Source: Pohlia nutans
Lineage: Eukaryota > Streptophyta > Bryopsida > Bryales > Mniaceae
Reading direction: 5' to 3'
NCBI GenBank assembly: GCA_022496805.1
Contig: CM040103.1
Location: forward strand, 2,932,001 to 2,996,000
DNA length: 64,000 nucleotides
A program made the position numbers and the translations under genes. Of this stretch, positions 49,377-64,000 are shown one piece after another. The notes under the pieces were generated by a model that saw only the letters and a list, made by a program, of their open reading frames with translations, was not told the DNA's origin and made no database searches. Within the stretch, counting starts at the first letter, position 1; every line of letters starts with the position of its first letter.

Positions 49377-49850
49377 TACCTCGCAGAAGGAGGCCTTTGA
49401 AGAATCTGAGCTCCCTGCAGATTTCAGGAAACAGAGGCCGCTTGTGCGAAACGGGATGCTAACATTGCTAGATGGGAGAGGCCAACCGGAAAGGACAGTC
49501 GTTGGGAAGCTTCGGACGCAACGAACCGGCCTTCACTTGCTCCTTGAACAGGGCGTTCGGGAGACCGGAGTAAGGATTTTCCCCTGTCAGAATCTCACAG
49601 CAGATGACGGCAAAGCTGTACACATCCGCTTTCCCGGGATTCAAGTTGGCCATCTCGAGATCACCTTCACCTCGAATGACCTCCGGCGCCATCCACATAG
49701 TAGTACCCCTGTTCAAAGCCAGATTTGAGTACGTCCGAGTGGTGTGTTTGGTTTTGCTCAGCCCAAAGTCCACAATCTTCACTGCAGAAACTCTCGATGT
49801 TGCAGGATCGGCAAGGTTGACGAGAATGTTCCCCGACTTGAGATCCCGAA
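49377..49850 (-). pseudogene. Third kinase copy: 3' part of the kinase exon
   Basis: It encodes the kinase C-lobe from RDLKSGN through DFGLSKTK, WMAPEV and the final helices, about 87 per cent like copies A and B by eye. On the 5' side it breaks at GAGATCCCG, where the Mutator-like element begins. On the 3' side it starts at the TACCT duplication. The splice donor is kept as GAG then GTATGT. Confidence 0.85.
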
Positions 49851-49887
49851 TGGACGCGGTCGGAGCAAACCAAGACTCAGAGCGGCT

Positions 49888-51778
49888 ATGAAGGGGGGGT
49901 CTCGGAAACGTGGCTGCAAGTGTGTAATTTATGTGAGGCAGTTGTATTACCTCCGAGACGTTGCACAAATCATCCTTCAGCATCCGCGCCACACGAATGC
50001 TGAAGGATTAATTTTTCACGGCATCGTGAAGGAGGGCAAGAGGTCTCCCTTCACATCCCAATTGTCTCCTGAAACTAGGGCATTCGTTGAGGAAAACCTT
50101 TGTCTCGGCGTTCCAATCTCCAAGATTAAGACCATGCACATAGAACTCGTGTTGAGGCTTAGGGCTCAAGGCGCACCCGCGTCTCGGGATCATTTTATGA
50201 AGGACTCGGACATCCGCAATGTAGCGGTGAAGGTCAACCAAGCTTGTTACCAAAACACGAGAACGATGCTGAATTGGTCTGCATGTGGGTTCAAGCTAAT
50301 CGAAACATAGTATTCTATTACCAGGAACTGAACTCCGGTTCAGTCTCAGGAGCTTTAAACGGAGATAACATGCCCTTTGTTATAGGTATTCAAACGGACT
50401 TTATGTTTAGGATGATGCTCGAGCACGGCCACAAGAGTGCCGTCTCGATTGATGCGACATTCAGAACAAACGAAAAAAAGGTATTGTGCGCATTGCCTGT
50501 CTCGTTTTTTAATTTTGAAACCTATACAGATGGTTTAGGGTTCAGGGTTTAGGACCATCCGGACATCTATTGTTTAGGCGAGACAGCAGTACTAATGTGC
50601 TTCAATTACTTGCATGCAGTTTTCCCTCTACACTGTGATGATCTTCGACAAATGGCAGAATGGATGTCCCGGAGCTTACGTGGTGATGTCTCGCAGTAAG
50701 CAATTGGACCATAGCATGAATGACATTGTTGGAATATACGAGACAGAGATTCGCTACGATCAGAACCAAGGTTTCTGGTGCCAATGCATTTTGGAGCTAT
50801 GTGGACAGTACATGGATGAAGAAACTCGATATGTGGGTGATGGGCAATTGCATTATCCCACATGCAGGCTAGGACACCAACGCCGCAATCGAGTCGTCCC
50901 ACAGTAACCTGAAGGCCGTCCTTAGAGCGTCTCGGGAAAGGCTTGTGGGGAGACGCGTGGACTGGCTCATTGACGAGCTAACCAATGATGTCATAAATCG
51001 ATACGAGTTTAACGCGTACATCAAAGAGAATGGCTTTGAGGGAAACCGGAAGACGGAATGGGTAGTTATTAACTCCCTTGTATAGGCTCGCAAGATTCCT
51101 AACCATTGCGTCACACTTCCATCCGAGACTGGAGAACCAATGTATGTGTCATCGAACAAGCGGCCCCATCTCCGTTACGCTGCGCACAACCCCAAGACAG
51201 AATGGGGGTGTTGTGAATGCCCTCACTCAATGAAGGGCAATCTATGCAAACACCACTTGAAAGTGCTGAGGATGTTGCGCCTGGACCTTGCTGAAGGTGG
51301 CATCGTCAAGGTGTGCGGAACTCTGTATGGTACATCTCGCGGCGGTATCTCGCAGCTTGTCCAGTTCCCGGAGCTCCCCGAGATAGAGCCCAAACTACCA
51401 GGCGAGAGCGACCCAGATAGAGCCCCGGGTACTCTCGGTCCCGACATCGAGACTGAAAATGTCGCTCCACCATCACCTGGGGCCGTGGACGAAGACAAGC
51501 GTCTCACTGAGAGCATTGACCGTCTCGCAGCTTCCATTTGCGACAGGGCATTGAAGCACCGTCTCGTGAAGAGGCTCTTGGAGGCAGACCTGCGCGCTAT
51601 GGATGCGAGACACGCTGCTATAGAACTACAAATCTCACATGGAGTTCTACATCCCGTGCAGAGAGAGGCGGCGCCATTCGTTGGTAACGATGTAAACGGT
51701 AGTAATACTCTTCGTCCGCACCGAGACTTCCTCAGTAGCTATTTCAGGTCGTCGAGGAACACGAGACAACGATTGTAG
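49888..51778 (+). pseudogene. Mutator-like (MULE) transposase with SWIM finger, decayed
   Basis: From an ATG at 49,888 the frame encodes an N-terminal region (SPFTSQLSPETRAFVEENL). It shifts by one base near 50,250 and goes on to VSIDATFRTNEKK (first catalytic Asp, codon 50,451). An intron 50,481-50,619 leads to FSLYTVMIFDKWQNGCPGAY (second Asp, codon 50,646). After about 50,860 the part that should hold the Glu is missing; the frame resumes at NAAIESSHSNLKAV, meets TAG near 51,083 and ends with a SWIM zinc finger (CCECPHSMKGNLCKHH) and an acidic tail to 51,778. The family is MULE/FAR1-related cut-and-paste transposase. The frameshift, deletion and stop make it inactive. It is convergent to the Ulp1 gene. 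Confidence 0.75.
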
Positions 51779-53973
51779 TGTGTTTAATTTTTTTTGAGGC
51801 TGTAACTGTCTGGCGAGACGGCGTCAAAGCCTGCCGTGCTTGGATTATTGACTTAAGAACATTGTAATGGGTTTAGGGTATCAAAATTTGGAAATTCGTC
51901 CACTTTGTCTCGGAATGCTAATGCTTAAGCTCTCCATGTTCAGTTGACACATTTGCCAAAGACTTAGAAACTGTACATACTGATCGGACAACGCACATGA
52001 TGTACGGGAAAGGATGTTACTGAATTTCAACTCTTTTTATTTACAAAGATGAGTATTACAATGTCGCCTTTCTACCGATGAGACTATATCACCGAATTAT
52101 GAATTTGAAATTGTTCCAGTCTTGGTGCAGGACGTATTATGTACAAGTTTCACAGAGAAAAATCTGTACATCTGCAAGAAAAAAAAATCTAAGCTCTAAC
52201 AAAATTCTATGTACTACATTCCCTAATACATTATACCCTACAAGATTGTCACATTGCTCGGACCCGGCTCACAATTTGTCCGCAGGGTCTTTAGCTTCTC
52301 GAGATTGTCTTGTCTCGCCTTCTTGTCCGCCTCCACCCTTGCTCTAGTCTCGTGAGCTTCCTCCTCTGCTGTAAACGGAGGGGCCTGGACGCTGACATCT
52401 TGAACGTCTCGGATGGGTCCCGATACATCATCAAGCCCATATATGGTGCGCCCGCCCTCCTGTCTCGCCCAAATAGGAGCCTCGATATCGCGGTAAACAA
52501 GTTGATGTTCAGCGAGATCGAGTACGAAGCGAGGCTTCGGGTACCTGTGATCTGGTCTGGCTGTCTCGCAGTATATCAACTGCAGCAGAAACCGAGCACA
52601 TACCTCTCCATTCCAATCCAGCCACTTCACCTGCATTACGTCTGCTTTCTCGAACGCGACGGGGTTTCGAGTTTCAAGACCCCGGTACTGCAAGTACTGC
52701 CACAACATGACGATGAGCATGTACCCGCATTCCCAGTCCGCTCGTTGGTTTGGCCACTCCACGTTCTTCCATTTCCGCGCCACGAGACGAACCCATTCCT
52801 TGGAACCTGGCCGAAACCCTCGCACTATACCCCAAGCAGAGCTGACAAGCATGACGAAGTCATCGAAGGCCTTTGTGTTTTGTAGTAAGTTCCTGGTCCC
52901 CATCAACATCGTCCTCTTGTCCTCCACTATTGCGAGACTCCAATGTTGTTTATCCATGTAGGGGACCACGAGGGTGTCTTCTTGACCACTGCACTCTTGG
53001 AAGAATTTGAGACCCATGTCACCGAGCCACTCCCAACTGACCTTGTTCTCTCCCAAGTAGTAAGGCAAGACCCCGGTCAGATTTGAGCTGACGATGTGAA
53101 TCCTGTCTTGGATCCAATCCGGTGCTCGGAGTACCAGGGAGCGGAGTCCGAGCTCCAGAAAGGGGTCTCGAAGCATTTTAGAAGGCTCGATGATGCAGTC
53201 CCAGTCTTGAATTTTTGTGGGAACCAGGACTAGCCGACGGATGTCATCAGAGAAATACACTGCAGTGTCTCCAACCTCGACATCAGGTTGAAGTTCATTT
53301 CCTTGCATTTCCCTGGTATTTCCAACAGCATTTGTTAGAAACGAGACAGAAATTGGAAGAATCCGGTCTTATAACAACATTGCAACGAAATGTCAATTCA
53401 GGAATTTCAAGAGTGGTTTAGAGTATCGTCACCTCCGACTGTTGTAGTGGTGGGGGAAGTTCAAGAGTTTCATTAACGTGCTCCAATGCCACCCTTCAAC
53501 TTGCACGGCGAACTCGTTCTTCAACTTCGTAGGTCTTAGGGTGCTGTCTCGGAGCGAAGTCTCGGGATTCATGAAATCAAAATGCCATTGACGCCCCCCT
53601 CCTTGCCCTTGTTTGGGTGAACAAAGTTTCCCACCTCCAACTGGAAAATCCTTGGAATATGGTCTTCCGCGGGACCCGTCTCTGGCTCAATCACCTCGAG
53701 GCCAGTCTCGGAGTTACCTTTGCTTGGGCGATCTAGAGTGACCGCCACCTCCGCCGGTGGGGGTTCCGGTCCCATAACACCCTCCGCAGACACCTTTGTC
53801 TTTGTTGCTTCGGGTTGAGGCTCCTGTCTCACCTCATCATTTGCTTGGACAGGTGCGGCTCCTTCTGTGTCCACTCTCGCCTCAGCTTCTGCTTCGACTG
53901 GTGCGGCTTCTCCCGGGTTCAATCTCGCCTCTGCTTGAGCGTCAACCGGTGCGGCTTTATCTGGGTCCAGTCT

Positions 53974-54291
53974 TGTTGAAGTAGGATAATTGCGTGGGCT
54001 GAAGTTGCTCATAGCCATGCGCATTAGCTAGAGTAGATGATGCGAATGAGCTAGACTTGCAACTAGAGAAGTGGTACTAGTTAGAAGTAATGAGAATTGG
54101 GTCTCCCAAGTGATATGGGCTGATCCTAGTGTACTAGGAGTGGAGTATGGGCTGATGTCCCATATGGTTTGCCAAGGGGACTCCCTTGGGTGTGCTACTT
54201 AAGAGGGGCAGCCCATGAGTAAAGATCATCTCTTTCCTATGCATTCCAAGTGTTTGTGTGAGGCTTTGGCATTCTAATCTAACCTACAATA
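53974..54291 (+). repeat. Copia 5' LTR (318 bp)
   Basis: Reads identical to the 3' LTR at 59,324-59,641. It begins TGTTGAAG and ends CTACAATA, so the termini are TG..TA, not TG..CA. It is preceded by the target duplication AGTCT (53,969-53,973). Confidence 0.95.
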
Positions 54292-54304
54292 GGTTATGGG
54301 CCCA
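54292..54304 (+). promoter_or_regulatory. Primer-binding site for the anticodon arm of initiator tRNA-Met
   Basis: GGTTATGGGCCCA directly abuts the 5' LTR. It is complementary to the CAU-anticodon arm (TGGGCCCATAACC) of eukaryotic initiator tRNA-Met, not to its 3' end (whose site would be TGGTATCAGAG). This is the half-tRNA priming of Drosophila copia and yeast Ty5. Confidence 0.85.
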
Positions 54305-55265
54305 CTCATGTGTTTTGCGTGAGTCAAAGATTAGATTGCTCATTGTGTGGAGGTCGTGCGTTGGAGCGCTGATTTTGGAGTATTGGAGCGCTGATTTGGA
54401 ACTTTGGAGGGCTGAATTCGAGCTTTGGTGGGCTGATTTCGACATTGGGAGGTATTACAATCTTCCTACCTTTGATCTACGTGTTGGAGGGCTGAATTCG
54501 CACTTTGGAGCTATCATTTGTTGATTTGGAGCTTTTGGAGCACTTTGGAGCACTTTTGGAGTTTATACACGTCTACAAGGGCTGAATTGGAGCTCTGGAG
54601 CTTATTGGTGTTTGTTGGAGTATATTGGAGCTGATTGGAGCTTATTGGAGCTTATTGGAGCTTATTAGAGCTTATTGGCTCAATTTGTGCTCAATTTGTG
54701 CACTTGTGTTGTTGCAAGGCACTTTTATGCTTTGAGGCTCTTGGGGTGAGTCTACAATCTGATTTTGGTATTGCAATTCTTGCACAAGGGTTTGGAATGT
54801 GAGTTATGCCCTTGGAGTGCTCAAAATTAGAGTTTGGGTTAGTGAATGCACAACGGGGCTGATTTGATGAATTTCAATGCAATTAGGACTTGAAGGGGCT
54901 GAATTTGCATTGATTTAGAGTCCTTGGAAGGCACAAGGGTGTCCATAGGGTGCATTACGTGTTGTGAAGCACAAGGGTGCTGATTTGAGTGGATTTGAGC
55001 CAACGAGTGCGCAATTCTCCTAGTTAGGGTGTTGTGGTATGATCTTGTGCAAATTCACTAAGAACCATCACGATTGAGTGTTGTGAGGTTGATGTGTAGC
55101 ACAAAGGTGCTGATTTAGTGTTTGGAATTAGTTTGGAGGCATTAGAAGCACGTACGTGTGCAATTTGCCTCACAAATCACAAAATTGTCAAAAAAATCAT
55201 AAAAACAATTTTTCTTAGCTTTCTAGGGGCTGAATTTTGTGAGCGTACGTCCTTCAATCAAGGAT
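54305..55265 (+). other. Copia leader, non-coding
   Basis: About 960 bp between the primer-binding site and the gag-pol start. It is rich in repeated TTGGAGC(T/G) and GGGCTGA(A/T)TT words, with no open frame. Confidence 0.6.
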
Positions 55266-58200
55266 ATGGCTACATTTGAGGGTGAAGGTGCTAAGGTTGT
55301 AGACAAGTTCGATGGCGTCAACTTCCACTTGTGGAAATTCAAGATGGAAATGGTCATGGCCGAAAAAGAATTGTGGGAGATAGTTGAGGGTAGTGAGGAA
55401 CCGCCTTCGTCCGACGCCGAGGCTAGGGTACGAACTGCGTACACTCGGCGAGAGAAAAAGGCCTTTGCGATTTTGGCTCTTAATCTTTCTGATTCCCAGC
55501 TCTCTCATATTCGGTCGTGCAAGACTCCCGCCGAGGCATGGGCCAAGCTTTGCAATATTCATGAGGCAAAGAGCTTGGTCAATATCTTGTTTTTGAGGCG
55601 CAAGTTTTTCACCATCAAGATGGAAGAAAACGACGACATGTTGGCGCACATCAACAAAGTCAAGGCTCTTGCGGATCAGCTCAACGGCGCAGACGTCAAC
55701 ATTACCGACGGTGATATCGTTATGACGCTCCTCGAGAGTTTGCCGCCGTCGTACGAGTATCTTATCGTTGCTATGGAGAGTAGGCCCATTAGCGAGCTCA
55801 CTCTTGATTATGTGACATCACGGTTGTTGCATGAACTCTCGCGGCGCAAAGAGAACGAGACTCGTGGCGATAGCGCGGCGCTTATGGCGAAGCAATCCAA
55901 GAGCGGTGCCAGTGGGAGCTCTACAGACAAGGTATGCTACTATTGCGGTAAGAAGGGCCACTTGGCAAAATTTTGCTACAAACGCAAGAGAGAGGAAAGT
56001 GCCAACAATACAAAGGTCAACGATGCAGGTGATGAGTACGCATTTATGACTAGCGTCTCTTCTTGTAGTGATGACGGGGACGAGTATGCAATGATGGCAA
56101 GTGACGTGTCATGCAATGGTAGTGTGATCGATTGGATTGTTGATTCGGGAGCCTCGAGTCACATGGCGCCCATTAGGACTTGTTTCCAATCATATCACGT
56201 CATATCTCCAAAGAATGTCATTTTGGGTGATGATACGGTTCTTCAAGCCGTGGGTAAAGGATCCATCGTCGTAGACACCGAGGTGAAGGGTCGTGTGAAG
56301 ACAATCACCATCCATGATGTCCTCCACGTTCCCAAGTTGAAGGCAAATCTTTTATCGGTGCGACATTTGGTGATGAAGCATTTGCGAGTGGAATTTAGCG
56401 ACCAAGGGTGTTTTGTGTTGTCTCCAAGTCGTGAGGAGGTGGCCATTATACACGAAGTCAACGGCTTGTACCAAATCAAGTTTTCCAAGATGCACGCGGC
56501 GGAATCGGCAACGTTGGTGCAATCGAGTTCAAACGAAGACAAGTTGGCGTTGTGGCATCGTCGTCTCGGGCATTTGAATGTCAAGAGTGTGAAAGCACTG
56601 CGTGGAATGGTAAGTGGCATGGATCTTGCACAATCACACGTCGCACCTAGTTCATTCACATGTGAGGGTTGTATTGAAGGCAAGCAACAACGCTCACCGT
56701 TTCCAGTTGATGGGGCAACTCGTGCAACCAAGGTTCTTGAGATTGTGCATTCCGACGTGTGTGGTCCAATGAAGACCACGTCTATGGGGGGTTGCAAGTA
56801 TTTTGTGACGTTCATTGATGATTTTTCGAGGAAGATATGGTTGTATCCGATCAAAGCAAAGAGCGAGTGTTTTGAGAAGTTCAAAGAGTTCAAGGCGTTG
56901 GTTGAGAAGCAATCCGAGCACAAGATCAAGGTGTTTCGATCGGATAATGGCGGCGAGTTCATGTCCAACCAATTTGACGAGTTATTGAAGAAAGAAGGCA
57001 TTGCTAGACAAACCACAACGCCATATACACCACAACAAAACGGAGTTGCAGAGCGTGCAAATCGAACAATTGTGGAAATGGCAAGGAGTATGTTGCATGC
57101 ACAAAATTTGGGTTTGGACCTTTGGGCGGAAGCGGTGGTGACTGCGGTGTACACACGCAACCGATGCCCGACGAGTGCGGTTCAAAACATGACACCAGAG
57201 CAAGCGTGGAGTGGGAGGCCACCCCGCGTGGAGCACATGCGCACATTTGGATGCATCGCATTTGCAAAGGTACCCGATTCTCAAAGAACCAAACTTGAGG
57301 CCAAGGCAACAAAATGTGTGTTTCTTGGATATTGTGAAGGTACCAAGGCGTACAGGCTCATGTCGCTCGAGACCAAGAAGATCATTCGAGCTCGTGATGT
57401 GACATTTTGCGAGAATTCCAAGGTTGAAGACAATTTGGACGATGGTCCAAGTGGGAGAAGTGGCGATAAACCGGCCATTGTGGACCAATCTTCCAAATCT
57501 CCCGTTATTGATATTGTTGATGAAGACGAAGATGACGAAGATGGTGGTGATGAGGAACATATTGAGGAGCGACCTTTGAAGACGAAGAATGGCGAGAAAA
57601 AGGCACAAGCAATGGCGGTTGAAGACAATGCATCCTCGAGCGATCGTCGTTATCTAGAGAGAAATCGTAGACCACTTGGCGAGTGGTGGAAGAATCATAT
57701 TCTCCCTCAAGGTGAGGAGGAGCATGCAAACGTTGCACTTTTAGATGCTCCATTGACGATTCGTGAAGCGTTGAGTTGTGATGATGCAAACAAGTGGGAG
57801 CAAGCCATGCAAGAGGAGTACAAATCGTTGATGGACAATGGCACTTGGGAATTGACTCCCCTCCCCAAGAATCGCAACGCTATCGGTTGTAAGTGGGTAT
57901 TTCGTGCAAAGAGAGATGCAACGGGTGATGTGGTTCGTTATAAGGCAAGATTGGTGGCAAAGGGCTTTTCACAAATCGAAGGTGTTGATTTTCATGAGAC
58001 CTTTGCACCGGTGGCGAAATTCACCACTATTCGATGCATTTTGGCCATCGGGGCTGCCATGGATTTGGAAATGCATCAAATGGATGTGAAGACGGCGTTC
58101 TTGAACGGCGAGTTGGACGAGGACATCTACATGGTGCAACCCGAAGGATTTGTGCAACGAGGTAATGAGAACCTTGTTTGCAAGTTGAACAAGTCATTGT

Positions 58201-59339
58201 ATGGGTTGAAGCAATCTCCACGCGCATGGTATCAAAAGATTGACACGTTTCTTGTTCATATCGGGTTCACAAGGAGCATCGCTGATCACAGCTTGTATTT
58301 CATGCAAAAGGGGCAACATGTGGTCATCGTGATCATATATGTGGATGATTTGATCATCCTTGCAAGTGGTATGAGCTCTTTGAAGGCATTGAAGGCAATG
58401 CTTGAGAACGAGTACGAGATGAGTGATCTGGGTGAGTTGCACTTTTGTTTAGGAGTTGAGTTTGTGCGAGATAGAGCAACACGCACCATAACAATGAATC
58501 AAAGCAAGTATGTTATGGATGTGCTCAAACGCTTTGGCATGGAGGATTGCAAACCGGTTGGCACTCCATTGGATGTGAATTCCAAACTCGTGAAACTCAC
58601 CGATGAGGAGTATGCATTAGAGGCTCAATCTATGGTGGATGTGCCATACAAGCAAGCTGTAGGGTCATTGATGTATGCTATGATTGCAACAAGGCCGGAC
58701 CTTGCGTATCCAATCAGCGTTGTGAGTCAACACATGGCAAGACCGGGTTCAAGTCATTGGGTTGCGGTCAAGAGGATCATGCGGTACTTGAAAGGCACAA
58801 GTGATGTGAGGTTGTGTCTTGGAGGTGACAACATTGTGTTGAGTGGGTATTGTGATGCGGATTATGCGGGTGATACCAATGATCGTAGATCCACCACGGG
58901 GTACATGTTCAAAGTTGGATCGAGGGCCGTTTCATGGAATAGCAAGCGCCAACAAACCACGGCCACGTCAACGGTTGAGGCGGAGTACATGGCGACGAGC
59001 CACGGTACGAAGGAGGCCATTTGGTTGAGGCAACTAATGGCGGATGTGAGATGCACTCAAGAGGAGGCTACAACAATCATGTGTGACAACCAAGGGAGTA
59101 TGTCATTGGCGAAGAATCCAACGCATCACTCACGTACAAAGCACATTGATGTGCAATATCACTTCATTCGAGAGAAGTTAGAGATGAAGGTGATAGAGTT
59201 GAAGTATTGTCCAACGGAGCACATGGTGGCGGACGTGCTGACAAAGGCTCTTGCGAGAGATCGACATCAAAGACTAGTGGTGGCATTTGGGCTCGAAGGC
59301 TTTGGCTATTTGCAAAGTGGGAGTGTTGAAGTAGGATAA
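55266..59339 (+). CDS. Copia gag-pol polyprotein, intact (1357 aa)
   Basis: I start at ATG 55,266 (MATFEGEG); the frame is open a little further upstream but without ATG. Order of domains: gag (UBN2-type, FDGVNFHLWKFKM), CCHC knuckle from Cys224 (CYYCGKKGHLAKFC), aspartic protease DSGASSHM (Asp293), GAG pre-integrase LWHRRLGHLN, integrase with Asp497, Asp560 and Glu596 (D-62-D-35-E), reverse transcriptase with KARLVAKGF, MDVKTAFLNGEL and IIYVDD (Asp1027-1028), RNase H with DYAGD, VEAEYMA and TKHIDVQYHFIRE. The order PR-IN-RT-RH defines Ty1/copia. All catalytic residues are present; there is no frameshift and no stop. The TAA lies 13 bp inside the 3' LTR. Confidence 0.95.
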   Translation: MATFEGEGAKVVDKFDGVNFHLWKFKMEMVMAEKELWEIVEGSEEPPSSDAEARVRTAYTRREKKAFAILALNLSDSQLSHIRSCKTPAEAWAKLCNIHEAKSLVNILFLRRKFFTIKMEENDDMLAHINKVKALADQLNGADVNITDGDIVMTLLESLPPSYEYLIVAMESRPISELTLDYVTSRLLHELSRRKENETRGDSAALMAKQSKSGASGSSTDKVCYYCGKKGHLAKFCYKRKREESANNTKVNDAGDEYAFMTSVSSCSDDGDEYAMMASDVSCNGSVIDWIVDSGASSHMAPIRTCFQSYHVISPKNVILGDDTVLQAVGKGSIVVDTEVKGRVKTITIHDVLHVPKLKANLLSVRHLVMKHLRVEFSDQGCFVLSPSREEVAIIHEVNGLYQIKFSKMHAAESATLVQSSSNEDKLALWHRRLGHLNVKSVKALRGMVSGMDLAQSHVAPSSFTCEGCIEGKQQRSPFPVDGATRATKVLEIVHSDVCGPMKTTSMGGCKYFVTFIDDFSRKIWLYPIKAKSECFEKFKEFKALVEKQSEHKIKVFRSDNGGEFMSNQFDELLKKEGIARQTTTPYTPQQNGVAERANRTIVEMARSMLHAQNLGLDLWAEAVVTAVYTRNRCPTSAVQNMTPEQAWSGRPPRVEHMRTFGCIAFAKVPDSQRTKLEAKATKCVFLGYCEGTKAYRLMSLETKKIIRARDVTFCENSKVEDNLDDGPSGRSGDKPAIVDQSSKSPVIDIVDEDEDDEDGGDEEHIEERPLKTKNGEKKAQAMAVEDNASSSDRRYLERNRRPLGEWWKNHILPQGEEEHANVALLDAPLTIREALSCDDANKWEQAMQEEYKSLMDNGTWELTPLPKNRNAIGCKWVFRAKRDATGDVVRYKARLVAKGFSQIEGVDFHETFAPVAKFTTIRCILAIGAAMDLEMHQMDVKTAFLNGELDEDIYMVQPEGFVQRGNENLVCKLNKSLYGLKQSPRAWYQKIDTFLVHIGFTRSIADHSLYFMQKGQHVVIVIIYVDDLIILASGMSSLKALKAMLENEYEMSDLGELHFCLGVEFVRDRATRTITMNQSKYVMDVLKRFGMEDCKPVGTPLDVNSKLVKLTDEEYALEAQSMVDVPYKQAVGSLMYAMIATRPDLAYPISVVSQHMARPGSSHWVAVKRIMRYLKGTSDVRLCLGGDNIVLSGYCDADYAGDTNDRRSTTGYMFKVGSRAVSWNSKRQQTTATSTVEAEYMATSHGTKEAIWLRQLMADVRCTQEEATTIMCDNQGSMSLAKNPTHHSRTKHIDVQYHFIREKLEMKVIELKYCPTEHMVADVLTKALARDRHQRLVVAFGLEGFGYLQSGSVEVG

Positions 59340-59641
59340 TTGCGTGGGCTGAAGTTGCTCATAGCCATGCGCATTAGCTAGAGTAGATGATGCGAATGAG
59401 CTAGACTTGCAACTAGAGAAGTGGTACTAGTTAGAAGTAATGAGAATTGGGTCTCCCAAGTGATATGGGCTGATCCTAGTGTACTAGGAGTGGAGTATGG
59501 GCTGATGTCCCATATGGTTTGCCAAGGGGACTCCCTTGGGTGTGCTACTTAAGAGGGGCAGCCCATGAGTAAAGATCATCTCTTTCCTATGCATTCCAAG
59601 TGTTTGTGTGAGGCTTTGGCATTCTAATCTAACCTACAATA
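59324..59641 (+). repeat. Copia 3' LTR (318 bp)
   Basis: Identical to the 5' LTR as far as I can compare base by base. Followed by the AGTCT target duplication. Confidence 0.95.
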
Positions 59642-62247
59642 AGTCTCGCCTCAACTTCTGCTTGGACTCGTGCGGCTTCTCCTGCAGGCGGTGCTCGTAT
59701 GGGCTTGGGCCATTCGCACATGTTCTACCTCTTGCGTGCCACATCCAAAACCGTCCTCGATACTTTGTCGGAACACAAAACACCTACTTTATACAGGTTA
59801 ACATCAACTGCATCTGGAAACCAGGGATGGAACTAAGTAAGGTAGAGCATCCATGACAATGAATAACCCGAGACAACACACATGATTTGGTCTCGCATGA
59901 ATGAAAACTAATACACGTTGGAATAGAACTTACTTAGGTTTTGAATCGGGAAGAAGTGGATATCCAAATCCTCCCGTCGTGCAAGTCAGTCCCGTAACTA
60001 CGCTGCTGGACCGGCCGGTCTCTACTCGGACTCCTTGGACAAATTACACCACAGCGCTACAAAGTTGTCTGGCTCCGAGACAGCGTAGTCCTCTACACCT
60101 CGACTTTGCGTATGCATGATCCACTTCCTGAAAGGGGTCCACTTCCCGTCTTGCACCGCTTTCAATGCAACAGCGGATACCTCCGGTGTGAAGCCCGTAT
60201 CCAGCATTGCGTCATCAGGTATGCCATATACCGCAGCCCCCACTGCAACGAGCATTGCGGACGCTCCCTCAAGACGGACACTGTCATCAGCCCACTTCTG
60301 AAGCGTCTCGCGGTTAGTGGCTCCTGTCATGGGATCCACTAAGCCGTACTCCACTTTGGCCAAGATAGAATACAGGCGAAGGAGACAGGCACTAGTGGGG
60401 GCTAAAACGTGAAGTGTCCTTGAACTTAGGGCACTCACAACCGTCGTCGCCTCTTCCATGGTATGCTTCCATGGCAGGGGTGGCATTCTCCAAGACAGCA
60501 GACTGTCCCCCGTACACATATGGTATAAGGGATGCCAGCCCCACACGCATCTCTCCACCTCCACAGCTTTTGTCTCATCCCATTGGCGTAGCTGCTCGCG
60601 CACCCACTCTTCCCTCTCTCGACGTACTCGCTTTTGCATATTATCCTGTCTCGCCCGAAAATCCTTGATCAACGACAGGCTCGCAAAATACTTGTGCGTC
60701 TCCAGGCATCCATTGTGGGTCTCGCTATCCTTCGCATCCCCGCCCTCCAGCCATGATATGGTATCGTTGACTTTGCCTTCCTCCTCGGCTGTGTACATGT
60801 TCGGATGCTGCAATAGAGGAGCAATTGTAAACACACAAACATGAACCCCACGGAAGAGTTTGAACCACGCCAAACGAGAGGACCATCAACCCTACTAAAT
60901 GAGAGTATTTTTTACCTTTCGTTTGAGCCGCGAGAATTTGCCATCTGCCTGGCATATTGCATCCTCAAAAGTGTCCCCTCTCCGAAAGGCCGAGGCCTTC
61001 CCCACCATTTCGTCTGTTGTCCACGACGAGCAGGTATTGGTGTCGTCTCTCATAAGGCCGCAGTCCATGAGCAGTATAGCAAGATCGGTTATGGGAAGAG
61101 GAGTTGGTACTGGGAGTGCTTCTTCGGGTATGGCGGTCTCGGCGTCCCGGGTGAATTTCAGAAGCTCCTCCTCGCGCTGCCTGCGGACACGTTCACTGTC
61201 CGAGACAGAAGGTGCAGCTGCCTGTCCTTCACTTTCCACTTCCATTTGAATGGGGCTAGAATGCGGCTCCTCCCCCAAAGTGGAGGGAATTACTGCTGGA
61301 TTCGAAGGACGTGCCCCCCCCCCGCACCACCGGAGTTGGAAGGGCGAGAGCCCTTCCTTTCGTAGACCATGCCCTCCACCTTTTTTTTCTTCTCCTTGCC
61401 CCGATCACTATCTGAGGGCACCTCCCTCTTCTTCTCCTTGCCGTGGTCTCCAACCGCGCTCCCCGCACCTGAACCGCTGGCCTGAACGTCTCAGCCCGAC
61501 TCCATCTTCCGCTCCTTCCCCTTGCCGTCTCGGCCCGACTCCATCTCCCTCTCCTTCCCCTTACCGTGGACATCTCTCTCTCCAATCACTACCCCCTCTC
61601 TTGGCCCGCTTGCATGACCGTCTTGGCCCAACTCCATCTCCTGCTCCTTGCCCTTACCGGAGTTTCGGGCAACGTCCTCCTCTACTCTCCCACTCCGATC
61701 AGGGTCTCGGGTAGAGTCTCGCATGGAGACGTGGAAATTTGAAGGGGAGCCACCACGTGGTTCACCAAACTTTGGCGGTTTAGGGGCTCTAATCGTGCAC
61801 GCAGGGCCAACCAAGACAACCTCTGTTTCTGCCTCTTCTTTCTTAACAACGGGCTTGATTTGCTGGGGCTTTCGCTTTGCTTTTGCACGGGCCTTTTTGG
61901 ACTACTTTGAACCCACGTCCTCGAAGTCGTCGTCATCATACTCGATCCGAGCGGGAGCGGCGAAAACGGAGTTCACATCTTGCTCCTCCTTCACCTCCTG
62001 CTTCACCTGGGAAGATAGTAGCTGACCATCCGGATGCTTTATCTACCACTCGCCAATAAGTTGTTCCGGAGTTTTCTTCTCCTTTCCAACCAAAAGGGCA
62101 GGCCAATTTTGCTCCAATGCATTCGGATAGAACTTCAACCTGACGTGGTCTATCCGACGGTGGTTGTTTAAACGCTGCTTCTGCATTAAACATCTACTCT
62201 CTATCGGACAGAGCACGCAATAAAATTTCTTGTGATTAAAGAAAACC

Positions 62248-62271
62248 GGGGGGGGGGGGGGGGGGGGGGGG
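62248..62271 (+). repeat. Run of 24 G
   Basis: An uninterrupted G tract inside the N-terminal part of the Ulp1 gene (poly-Pro on the minus strand). It separates two good minus-strand frames, so a slippage change in its length may have caused the frame break. Length may also be a sequencing artefact. Confidence 0.8.
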
Positions 62272-62575
62272 TGTGGCATTTCACGAGCATTCGTCCCCAT
62301 TCCTCTACTGTCCATGTCTCCAAATAGTGATGCTTGTCTATAGTTATTCGCTCCTGAACAATCCCGCCCTGCAAGCGAATTCTTAGGGCCTTCAAATCCT
62401 CGTCGCTGGAAATCTCTCGCACCATTGTGCCCTCCCAGTTGGTACTCCCTGTACCGAGATATTCATGTAATTAGTATATGAACCCATCTACAAACAAGGC
62501 AATAAACTACACGAGCCCGATAAGTAGGCGAGACCCTATCCCAAACCCCGAACTACCTAATCAGCAATGAAGAAC

Positions 62576-62960
62576 ATATATGAAATCATCACGCCATGCC
62601 AGTGGATCCTGTGACGAGACATAAAGAAAGTCAACATCCCACATACATTTTCCACTGAGAATGCACACTGCAGTAAACTAATCAAGCCAGCCTGACCGAG
62701 ACCCGCAAGACTGAGCATGTAGCACTGCAAACAAGGCAGGTGAGTCTCCCTAAACTGAGACTGACATTTACATGATCAGTATTCCAAATCAAATGTCAAT
62801 CCATCACGCTAGGCCAGTGGACCTTTTCAGAAGACCTAAACAATGTTTTCGGGCTATTATACATTTGCCACTTAGAATGCACACTGCAGTAAACAAATGA
62901 AGCGACCCTGATCGAGACCCACGAGACTGAGCATGTAGCACTGCAAACTAAACAGACCTT
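62576..62960. repeat. Two-unit tandem repeat, about 215-bp period
   Basis: ATCACGC(C/T)A(T/G)GCCAGTGGA ... GAATGCACACTGCAGTAAAC ... GACTGAGCATGTAGCAC occurs in both units (from 62,588 and 62,804). Each unit carries GAGACCC words. It lies upstream of the Ulp1 gene's first visible exon. Confidence 0.75.
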
Positions 62961-62969
62961 AAATCCTTC

Positions 62970-63780
62970 AAAGACATCCACACATGAATTTGCTAATCAA
63001 TCACGGGAATGCAACGAAAACATCTCTATGTACCGGAAATGACCGAATCTCTAAAACCGTAAACCAAACCTGCTGCTTAAACCCTAAACAATCTAGTCCG
63101 GATACATGCAATGTGAAGCAATGAAATGATAATCCGTCAACCGTAAGCCAACTTAAGCGTTCAAAGCGCACCCCAGGTCATACAAACAGTTGCCTTTACA
63201 CACGATCATTTATGCATAGACGCTAAACAGTAATTGGTCTAAACTCTGATTGAATATACTCACAATTTATTCGTGAATGAGATGCGCTGCGCTGCAGTCG
63301 ATGAGGATCCCGACGTATGCCTAAACCGCGCTAAAACCCTGAACCCTAAACCAAGTGTTGTTGCAGGAATGGCGAGACGGAACTTTATCCTCCAAAATCT
63401 CCAGGGCGCAAAAACTAAACCGCAAACAACAATTCAAATCCAATTGCAACAAGAGCAAGGCGCCAACAACCAAAAACAAAATGAGGAACCAAAGAAACCT
63501 AAGGAAGAAGAAGATGGAGGCCACCATCATCATCAGCCGTCTCGCCATCATCATGCCATGATTGGAAATGAATTACAAGAATGATTAGCCATCCTAACCC
63601 TAGGCCGCCAAACGTACGAGACTGGGTGGGCCACCACTTGAAAGACATGATGAGAGACAGCTTGGGTATGATGGATGACATCTGACATCGGATGGATGAC
63701 ATCTGTCACTCGGATGAGACCCTCGCACATGCCATTGAATGCATGATAGCCATGGCATGGACTGCATACGTGGTAGGGGG
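62970..63780. other. 5' region of the Ulp1 gene; no separate gene recognised
   Basis: A plus-strand frame ending at 63,584 is Gln/Asn/His-rich and looks incidental. Words such as ACCCTAAAC and CGAGAC recur. It probably holds the leader or first introns of the minus-strand gene. Confidence 0.35.
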
Positions 63781-63789
63781 CGCGAGACT

Positions 63790-63900
63790 GACGACGTGGC
63801 ACGAGCTGTCTCAAGACTGATGACGTGGCAGGAGGATGAGGCGGGGGTAGCGAGCCAGCCGACGTGGCAAGACGGTCGAGACATCCGACGTGGCAGCGGG
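63790..63900. promoter_or_regulatory. Cluster of four GACGTGGCA (G-box/ABRE-like) sites
   Basis: GACGTGGCA occurs four times in about 100 bp, near 63,794, 63,820, 63,860 and 63,889, interleaved with CGAGAC words. The ACGTGGC core is the classic plant bZIP/bHLH target. The position, upstream of the minus-strand Ulp1 gene, suits a promoter. Confidence 0.5.
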
Positions 63901-64000
63901 CCCACACGAGACTGGGGCAGGAAGCAAGAAAAAAAGCCGGAATCGGGCGGAAGAAAATCAGGCTCGGAAGGAAAAGAAGAGGCGGGCGGGCCGTGGGACC

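Follow-up and report, generated by a model that had tools for sequence, protein, structure and literature searches.

Architecture of the locus

The window analysed here, a 64,000-nt stretch of the Pohlia nutans contig CM040103.1 (positions 2,932,001 to 2,996,000, forward strand), contains towards its right end a truncated and decayed member of a Mutator-like family that is dense in the hexamer CGAGAC (GTCTCG on the other strand), hereafter the word. The element carries a transposase gene and, on the opposite strand, a gene with an Ulp1-like exon, and is split by a copia-type insertion (Table 1). The first-pass annotation had placed it at 49,850-63,910, but these are not its boundaries: homology to other copies begins at 49,844, because the window copy has lost its leftmost ~1.07 kb and its truncated side adjoins kinase-like sequence, and the right terminus lies ~86 bp past the window end, at about window position 64,086, next to a terminal repeat at C19:2996052-2996082 (window 64,052-64,082). 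A search confined to the window found no terminal repeat or target duplication of the element, since this copy has a truncated left side and its right terminus falls beyond the window. Relative to other copies, the transposase gene is missing ~350 bp at ~50,715; by eye, it contains a SWIM-like Cys/His cluster near 51,209-51,270. The copia insert has two exact 318-bp LTRs (53,974-54,291 and 59,324-59,641), an AGTCT target duplication (53,969-53,973 and 59,642-59,646) and an open frame of 1370 aa (55,227-59,339).

Table 1 Features of the element and its surroundings, in window positions
Feature	Position	Strand	Basis
Kinase-like sequence adjoining the truncated left side; flank, outside the element	49468..49843	-	Pfam PF07714, E 1.2e-17, for ORF 49,468-50,007; outside the homology of other copies
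Left segment of 5'-truncated Mutator-like element, 31 words	49844..53973	+	Start of homology to other copies; word count
Disrupted transposase gene with exons spread over several frames	49891..51778	+	Translations; protein relatives with PF10551/PF21056/SWIM
Exon of Ulp1-like (C48) protein, 376 aa free of stops, containing 9 words	52241..53368	-	Translation; genomic matches; fold resemblance
LTR retrotransposon of copia type, inserted within the element, with 3 words	53974..59641	+	LTRs, target duplication, open frame
Right segment of Mutator-like element, 23 words	59642..64000	+	Homology; word count; terminal repeat position
Further exon of minus-strand gene, upstream of Ulp1-like exon	60022..60885	-	Translation; counterpart in family B 685-aa open frame
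Further exon block of minus-strand gene	60895..61245	-	Translation; family B comparison
Block of minus-strand gene, basic region, stop-interrupted in window copy	61491..61901	-	Translation; family B comparison
5' block of minus-strand gene, possible C2H2-type zinc finger	62043..62462	-	Conserved Cys/His pattern by eye

Word density in the window copy

We counted 54 exact words in the element, 31 starting in 49,850-53,973 and 23 in 59,642-63,910, while 200 dinucleotide-preserving shuffles of the two segments contained 4.16 on average and never more than 12; the top count of any word in any of these shuffles was 19. (The shuffle analysis itself scores 53 words, as the last one extends past the end of the slice used.) The first-pass estimate of about 54 words against about 4 by chance was thus accurate, as was its use of the copia insert as an internal control with 3 words, the number that we find starting there. 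Six words start in positions 1-49,849.

The words are divided between the strands (25 and 29) and their spacing in this copy is random-like. Approximate coding blocks hold 37 of them (6.9/kb) in all three phases, and the sequence outside these blocks holds 17 (5.6/kb). Shuffling synonymous codons within the coding blocks (n = 2,000) gave a mean of 8.0 and a maximum of 18, which agrees with the earlier statement that codon use does not suffice for a word found on both strands, in exons and elsewhere. Together, the dinucleotide, synonymous-codon and codon-order shuffles rule out chance or composition as the cause of the density. CGAGAC was moreover the top hexamer in all seven loci tested, both diverged lineages included.

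Complete copies and family membership

Family A was sampled through 20 of 21 other full-length or nearly full-length matches with 86-91% identity, a class of 70% identity through both of its two matches, and a sister family, B, through 3 of 14 full-length or near full-length matches; complete boundaries were sought for six copies, four of family A and two of family B. These six measure 9.5-10.2 kb and contain 79, 86, 85, 88, 73 and 73 words, 73 being the number in each complete family B copy. This amounts to about one word per 115-130 bp across the whole element, the middle being as dense as the rest with no concentration at the ends, and counts across 20 family A stretches range from 41 to 89. 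Their flanks hold 3 words in 12.8 kb on the left and none in 5.6 kb on the right. Density inside the element is thus far higher than outside, both in the rest of the window and in the flanks of the six copies, and neither shows the equal enrichment that would have marked the word as a general property of unrelated DNA.

The first-pass assignment to the Mutator-like elements is supported by 9-bp target duplications, long terminal inverted repeats and a MULE domain in transposase relatives. Target duplications flank five of the six complete copies (L009, L010, L012, L031 and L032), none being seen in the flanks of L011. With up to three mismatches allowed, the terminal inverted repeats extend over 299 bp, the limit of the search, in L010 and L011, over 162 bp in L031, 96 bp in L009, 61 bp in L032 and 20 bp in L012, where the left start is duplicated and the repeat short for that reason. 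Each repeat contains two words, identical in families A and B. The MULE transposase domain PF10551 scores above cut-off in two of five protein relatives of the transposase read-through (P0005 and P0007), one of which also has SWIM; it was not found in the element's own ORFs scanned, which gave a weak match to ZSWIM1-3 (E 0.13). A variant terminal repeat, TTGAATGCG, may represent a third terminal-repeat family.

Form and orientation of the word

The word has an extended form, [C/G]CGAGACNG. Beyond the G or C before it and the G two bases after it, flanks are unrelated, and the base directly following it is nearly unconstrained, with 49 A, 43 T, 38 G and 29 C among 159. We considered duplication of longer units as the main source of the words and rejected it, given the unrelated flanks of the 54 words and the few words in internal repeats; those repeats are short, and a spacing of 48 was seen. 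Spacing is more even than random in family B and not more even than random in family A. Orientation ratios relative to the gene are 25:23 and 26:23 for family B; for family A they run from 35:19 to 38:20 (p 0.025-0.067), which leaves a weak bias there. As strand preference is weak or absent, an RNA signal is not supported.

The form of the word bears on the idea that a host protein reads it, either a transcription factor that the element exploits, such as one of B3/ARF type, or a repressor. Followed by A, as are 19 of the 54 window words, it yields on the other strand TGTCTC, which we take to be the reported auxin-response core. Because this following base is hardly constrained, TGTCTC is not the actual unit; furthermore, selection on the element would not keep a repressive site, and the rest of the window carries the word at background level. 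We therefore regard a host reader as unlikely.

Conservation of the word between lineages

We compared families A and B, whose Ulp1-like proteins are 60% identical and whose DNA is 75% identical, chiefly through L010 and L031, with L009, L012 and L032 added in some comparisons. From A to B, 51 of 75 alignable words occupy the same place, where ~13.1 would be expected, and 52 of 71 are kept in the reverse direction. When words were masked before aligning, 45 of 73 and 42 of 72 still coincided, fewer than the unmasked 51 of 75 yet enough to reject an artefact of the aligner pulling words together. By comparison, offset (neighbouring) hexamers were kept in 22-34% of cases from A to B and CpG-matched hexamers in 25.5% of 775. 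A third lineage, L029, keeps 59 of 65 words, compared with 64% of CpG control hexamers and 61% of neighbouring ones, so that the same word is present in three diverged lineages. Fourfold-degenerate sites are kept at 40 of 44 positions inside words and 410 of 586 outside (P = 0.0017, Fisher test), and words are kept in non-coding stretches too. Retention was independent of the extended flanks (7/9, 20/32 and 24/34 for words with 0, 1 and 2 preferred flank bases), and since A and B differ at 24 of the 75 aligned words, single sites are dispensable. Another word, ACATCC, is also well kept, at 61% of 19 occurrences from A to B and 69% in reverse, before gaps.

After insertion, copies lose the word at about the same rate as other CpG hexamers or slightly slower, and decay proceeds mainly by C-to-T type changes. 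Set against its retention between lineages, this loss indicates that CGAGAC was selected at the DNA level, at individual sites, in active lineages. The suggestion that the word is functional thus finds strong support in its conservation between families, which the first-pass annotation could not see, and we consider it very probably a functional word of the DNA itself.

The same comparisons weigh on whether the word could lack function, its spread being due to nothing more than duplication, biased mutation, codon usage or common ancestry. Near copies do have nearly all words in common by descent, and short internal repeats contain a few of them. However, the flanks of the 54 words are unrelated, the synonymous-codon shuffle accounts for a mean of only 8.0 of 37, and between lineages the words outlast their neighbours; moreover, as the word contains a CpG and decay is mainly of C-to-T type, mutation bias acts against it. 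We consider such a purely passive origin extremely improbable.

Proteins encoded by the element

Between families A and B, the transposase is the best conserved protein (82-91% identity, against 50-70% for the minus-strand gene). The Ulp1-like exon has 83 further genomic matches, the more distant ones at 24-45% identity. For its earlier naming as Ulp1 the results point both ways. A Pfam C48 domain was found in none of 11 sequences at E <= 10, and no C48 chain was found by profile among PDB sequences; Foldseek ranked SENP/NEDP1/Ulp1 proteases 1-11 of 602, though from a poor model (mean pLDDT 38.6) and with a best E of 4.4e-3, none reaching 1e-3. His142, Gln208 and Cys214 are invariant in the 11 sequences, all of which have Thr158 where, by eye against the SENP pattern as we know it, the catalytic Asp is expected. 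The protein had no match in viral contigs. Other MULEs carry antisense C48 protease genes as well (Kaonashi-like, KI-MULE and MULE-Ulp1), and like them the present element pairs a transposase with a C48-like gene on the opposite strand; we know of no dispersed word in those MULEs.

In family B (L031), the minus-strand gene includes one open frame of 685 aa, for which no homolog was found at E <= 1e-3 among 7,998 candidates scored. The gene's possible zinc-finger region (Table 1) matched no Pfam family above cut-off and, as a structural model (mean pLDDT 52.5), no PDB entry at E <= 0.001. The element ORFs scanned yielded no Pfam domain recognised as VANC-type or DNA-binding. In particular, neither DUF1985 nor DUF287, domains named for VANC proteins (PMC5735166), had a match in the scanned ORFs from the window copy, L010 and L031, which cover part of the exons, or in the 11 Ulp1-like sequences.

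A proposed recognition word for the element's own DNA

Transposons must distinguish their own DNA from that of the host, and the word probably works as a tag for such recognition. We propose that CGAGAC, extended as above, would serve this Mutator-like superfamily as a recognition word, a cis-acting DNA site whose repetition over the whole element would allow a sequence-specific protein to bind along its full length. We infer this protein, its identity and the consequences of its binding. It is likely encoded by the element, the best candidates being the zinc-binding part of the transposase and the large minus-strand protein. The likeliest purpose would be to mark the element's own chromatin, as VANC does in VANDAL elements, so as to keep or make it open or to recruit the Ulp1-like protein; for such a chromatin or anti-silencing purpose we see at best an even chance. 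The explanation as a whole, from recognition word through element-encoded reader to self-marking of chromatin, seems to us evenly balanced between right and wrong. Counting against it are the negative Pfam result for VANC-type and DNA-binding domains in the ORFs scanned, the weak model of the zinc finger proposed by eye, the independence of retention from the extended flanks, the spacing in family A, the good retention of ACATCC and the 24 aligned words at which A and B differ.

The proposed parallel with VANC, raised in the first-pass annotation, fits in principle and departs in detail. Like VANDAL21/Hiun and VANDAL6 of Arabidopsis, the element belongs to the MULE superfamily, has extra genes besides the transposase, and contains one short family-specific word that is dense inside and rare outside; the 9-bp length of the VANDAL motif is also similar to that of the extended word (PMC5735166). 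VANDAL motifs form same-orientation, often tandem arrays mainly in non-coding DNA and turn over fast, those of VANC21 and VANC6 differing despite the recent separation of the families (PMC5735166). Here, unlike those arrays, words are dispersed on both strands and as dense in coding sequence as outside it, and the same word persists across lineages whose Ulp1-like proteins are 60-70% identical; no VANC-type domain appeared in the ORFs scanned, and we count the long terminal repeats of complete copies as a further difference. We tentatively suggest, at somewhat less than even confidence, a DNA-level self/non-self tag: some 70-90 copies of a 6-9 bp word, spread over the whole element with exons included and each kept by selection for longer than the DNA around it, would be read by an element-encoded protein. 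The word would have stayed unchanged as identity in the accessory protein fell to 60%, and the system would thus be a stable equivalent of VANC, which evolves fast.

Many copies of a short word are also a feature of CACTA/Spm elements, in which an element-encoded protein, TNPA, binds them (PMC2613891); the present reader is inferred. It is possible, if distinctly less probable than binding by an element protein that marks chromatin, that the word is a transposase-binding site along the whole element, serving for instance to join ends or to compact it, without anti-silencing. The two identical words per terminal inverted repeat, the transposase being the most conserved protein, as expected of the reader of an unchanged word, and the repeated subterminal sites bound by TNPA speak for this. 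Known subterminal sites, however, are found no more than some hundreds of bases from an end (159 and 732 bp in Tgmt*; PMC2613891), whereas here the whole 10 kb is covered with an equally dense middle, and CACTA is a different superfamily.

A short word on both strands, in and between genes, further resembles bacterial DNA uptake sequences and Chi sites, which are genome-wide, unlike the present word, confined to a eukaryotic transposon. By analogy, the word might act in copying or repair, biasing gene conversion or template choice between family members. Its dispersal over both strands and over coding and non-coding DNA would suit this, as would the similarity of L029 to family A, which is uneven along its length and could reflect exchange between lineages; we have no eukaryotic precedent to cite, and consider it quite improbable.

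Among the literature searched, VANC of Arabidopsis is the one case found of sequence-specific anti-silencing by a transposon protein. If self-marking of chromatin through CGAGAC is true, the principle has arisen, or lasted, in elements other than VANDAL, using a word tolerated in exons and long fixed, and its reader, once found, could offer a sequence-specific handle on chromatin. The family lends itself to such work as a test system: three lineages share its one word, a single genome offers numerous copies, both complete and decayed, and word numbers of 41-89 form a natural dose series.

A hexamer repeated throughout a Mutator-like element

The window contains a Mutator-like element interrupted by a copia-type retrotransposon. 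The first-pass annotation had estimated by eye about 54 exact CGAGAC or GTCTCG words in the two element segments, and exact counting returned 54, compared with a mean of 4.16 and a maximum of 12 in 200 dinucleotide shuffles of the element. The copia insert, put forward as an internal control, contains 3 words, and window positions 1-49,849 contain 6. Most one-base variants of the word lie near background in this element; those clearly raised relative to values scaled from the remaining window, CAAGAC (16 vs 3.9) and TGAGAC (10 vs 2.4), are attributed to CpG decay of CGAGAC.

This element is a decayed copy: the left ~1.07 kb is missing, so that neither the beginning of the transposase nor the left-hand terminal repeat is present, a further ~350 bp is absent within the transposase gene, and the minus-strand gene carries stops. 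That gene also holds a long G run, which other copies read through without, and a kinase-domain sequence adjoins the truncated end. The copia insertion is recent, as its LTRs are identical across 318 bp. Its 5-bp target duplication overlaps a GTCTCG word, which may be a coincidence given the good share of the element that words occupy.

Positions of features in and beside the window element
Feature	Window position	Observation
Kinase-domain sequence	49468-49843	adjoins truncated element
Element, left segment	49,844-53,973	31 words
Copia target duplication, left copy	53969-53973	AGTCT
Copia target duplication, right copy	59642-59646	AGTCT, reading AGTCTCG
Element, right segment	59,642-64,000	23 words
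G run	62250-62272	within minus-strand gene
GACGTGGCA-like words	63780-63905	recur by right end

Word content across family copies

Searching the genome assembly (698 Mb, 332 contigs) in six frames with the Ulp1-like exon yielded 84 matches, from which we took 20 copies of the window element's family (A), 2 of a 70% lineage and 3 of a 57-62% lineage (B). Words numbered 41-89 in the 9.9-kb stretches from the 20 family-A copies, partial copies having the fewest. CGAGAC ranked first among hexamers in 7/7 loci, two each from A and the 70% lineage and three from B; the partial copy L030 held 37. Six elements (4 A, 2 B; 9,483-10,154 bp) are complete, bounded by terminal repeats starting CCCCGTCTCTATATCCCCCGG and by target duplications (9 bp in 5/6). 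They contain 79, 86, 85, 88, 73 and 73 words; their left flanks (2.0-2.2 kb each) contain 0, 1, 1, 0, 0 and 1, and their right flanks none.

Allowing up to 3 mismatches, the terminal-repeat pattern had 267 forward and 285 reverse genome matches, and the reversed-pattern control had none. Many of these repeats, with the variant TTGAATGCG in place of TTAAATGCG, lie at positions other than those of the observed Ulp1-like matches; they probably represent a further family.

Words are independent of reading frame

Codon use had been discounted as a cause of the enrichment, and the coding blocks of the window copy, with limits set by eye from open frames rather than transcripts, bear this out: their 37 words fall in all phases and both orientations. 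Shuffling synonymous codons 2,000 times gave a mean of 8.0 words (maximum 18), and shuffling codon order a mean of 3.4 (maximum 10). Word density was similar within and outside these blocks (6.9 and 5.6 per kb). Occurrence of the word does not follow the reading frame.

Words are retained between lineages

We compared families A and B chiefly through one pair of complete copies, L010 (A) and L031 (B), backed by the pair L012/L032 and by L029, a copy of the 70% lineage, all from one genome and part of its copies. Aligned DNA of the main pair is 74.8% identical, compared with 89.6% for bases in A's words. Conservation at homologous positions, raised in the first-pass annotation, was evident: of the 75 words that could be aligned, 51 were intact at the corresponding position, against ~13 expected. 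Among controls, 22-34% of hexamers 8-30 bases away, 25.5% of 775 composition-like hexamers with one CpG and 27.9% of 857 terminal-CG hexamers were intact. In the reverse direction 52/71 words were kept (corresponding controls 18-36%, 27.4% and 29.4%). CpGs were kept at 63/76 positions inside words and 254/460 elsewhere. When words were masked before aligning, 45/73 still coincided (42/72 in a second pair).

L029 kept 59/65 words relative to A (CpG controls 64%, neighbours 61%) and 35/55 relative to B (22% and 26%). It is 92-98% similar to family A over most of its length and 74-83% in one ~2 kb stretch, whose sequence suggests either exchange between lineages or fast local change.

Among words found 15 or more times in L010, 33 in all, CGAGAC was the best kept, followed by CGCGAG, which partly overlaps it, and ACATCC. 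The latter (16-19 occurrences in L010 and L031; 61% kept A to B, 69% B to A) almost matches CGAGAC, and we have no explanation for it.

Where A and B codons specify the same amino acid, third positions agree at 66/72 inside words and 979/1285 outside (P = 0.0014); fourfold sites agree at 40/44 and 410/586, respectively (P = 0.0017). Words are also kept in introns and flanking non-coding stretches, in small numbers. Judged from these alignments, protein constraint is no explanation for word retention.

Decay, flanking bases and spacing

Relative to the family majority, 19 A copies kept 81-97% of words and 75-93% of control CpG hexamers, words faring better in 12 copies, equally in 4 and worse in 3. 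Single copies thus decay almost neutrally, perhaps with a small advantage in word retention, and the main selection acted on lineages that continued transposing. The commonest lost forms, CAAGAC (51), TGAGAC (27) and CGAGAT (20), follow the pattern expected of methylated cytosines.

Across 159 sites in L010 and L031, a G or C preceded the word in 127, and its second following base was G in 90; [C/G]CGAGACNG fits 73, with 19.9 expected under a simple base-frequency assumption. Retention did not depend on these bases, which may therefore reflect no more than a preference. Spacing in family B was more even than random (CV 0.65 and 0.69, an evenness reached by 0 and ~2 of 2,000 random placements), and in family A it was not (CV 0.85-0.91).

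Element proteins and possible readers of the word

The plus strand encodes a transposase. Of 7,996 candidates scored against its read-through, 5 proved to be relatives; a MULE domain is present in two, and SWIM as well in one of the two. The large minus-strand gene has an Ulp1-like 3' exon. Pfam returned nothing for 11 versions of this protein, and its AlphaFold model is poor (pLDDT 38.6); the top 11 PDB matches are SENP/NEDP1/Ulp1 proteases without exception. His142, Gln208 and Cys214 are invariant in the 11 sequences, and the position we take by eye, against the SENP pattern, to be the catalytic Asp appears as Thr in 11/11, so the protein may lack protease activity. The 5' block shows a C2H2-finger-like Cys/His pattern common to A and B, with one Cys lost in L009, a complete A copy; its model is weak and PDB gave no match. 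Between A and B, transposase blocks share 82-91% amino-acid identity and minus-strand blocks 50-70%.

A parallel had been drawn with VANC, the anti-silencing proteins of Arabidopsis VANDAL elements. VANC21 binds YAGTATTAY and VANC6 AGTTGTCC/AGTTGTAC, at mostly non-coding, single-orientation, often tandem and quickly changing sites (PMC5735166), and VANDAL is a flowering-plant MULE clade with SWIM and CCHC, plus either a plant mobile domain or DUFs (PMC6446971). In CACTA elements, TNPA sites are subterminal (PMC2613891), whereas here words cover the whole body. The element thus resembles a VANC target in outline and, by the features tested, is not a VANDAL member. Searches of open-licence papers turned up no transposon described as carrying a dispersed word of this kind, and no CGAGAC transposon motif.

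The words would most likely be binding sites for a protein coating the whole element, for which retention at the DNA level, on both strands and along the full length, is what one would predict. Since the element pays for word upkeep, the reader should serve the element, and whole-body coverage would fit chromatin marking better than end recognition. Candidate readers, unranked, would be two element products: the transposase, which is conserved, and the minus-strand protein.

The GACGTGGCA-like words near the right end, and ACGTGG, with 17 occurrences in L010 of which half are kept in B, are possibly a second, subterminal signal.
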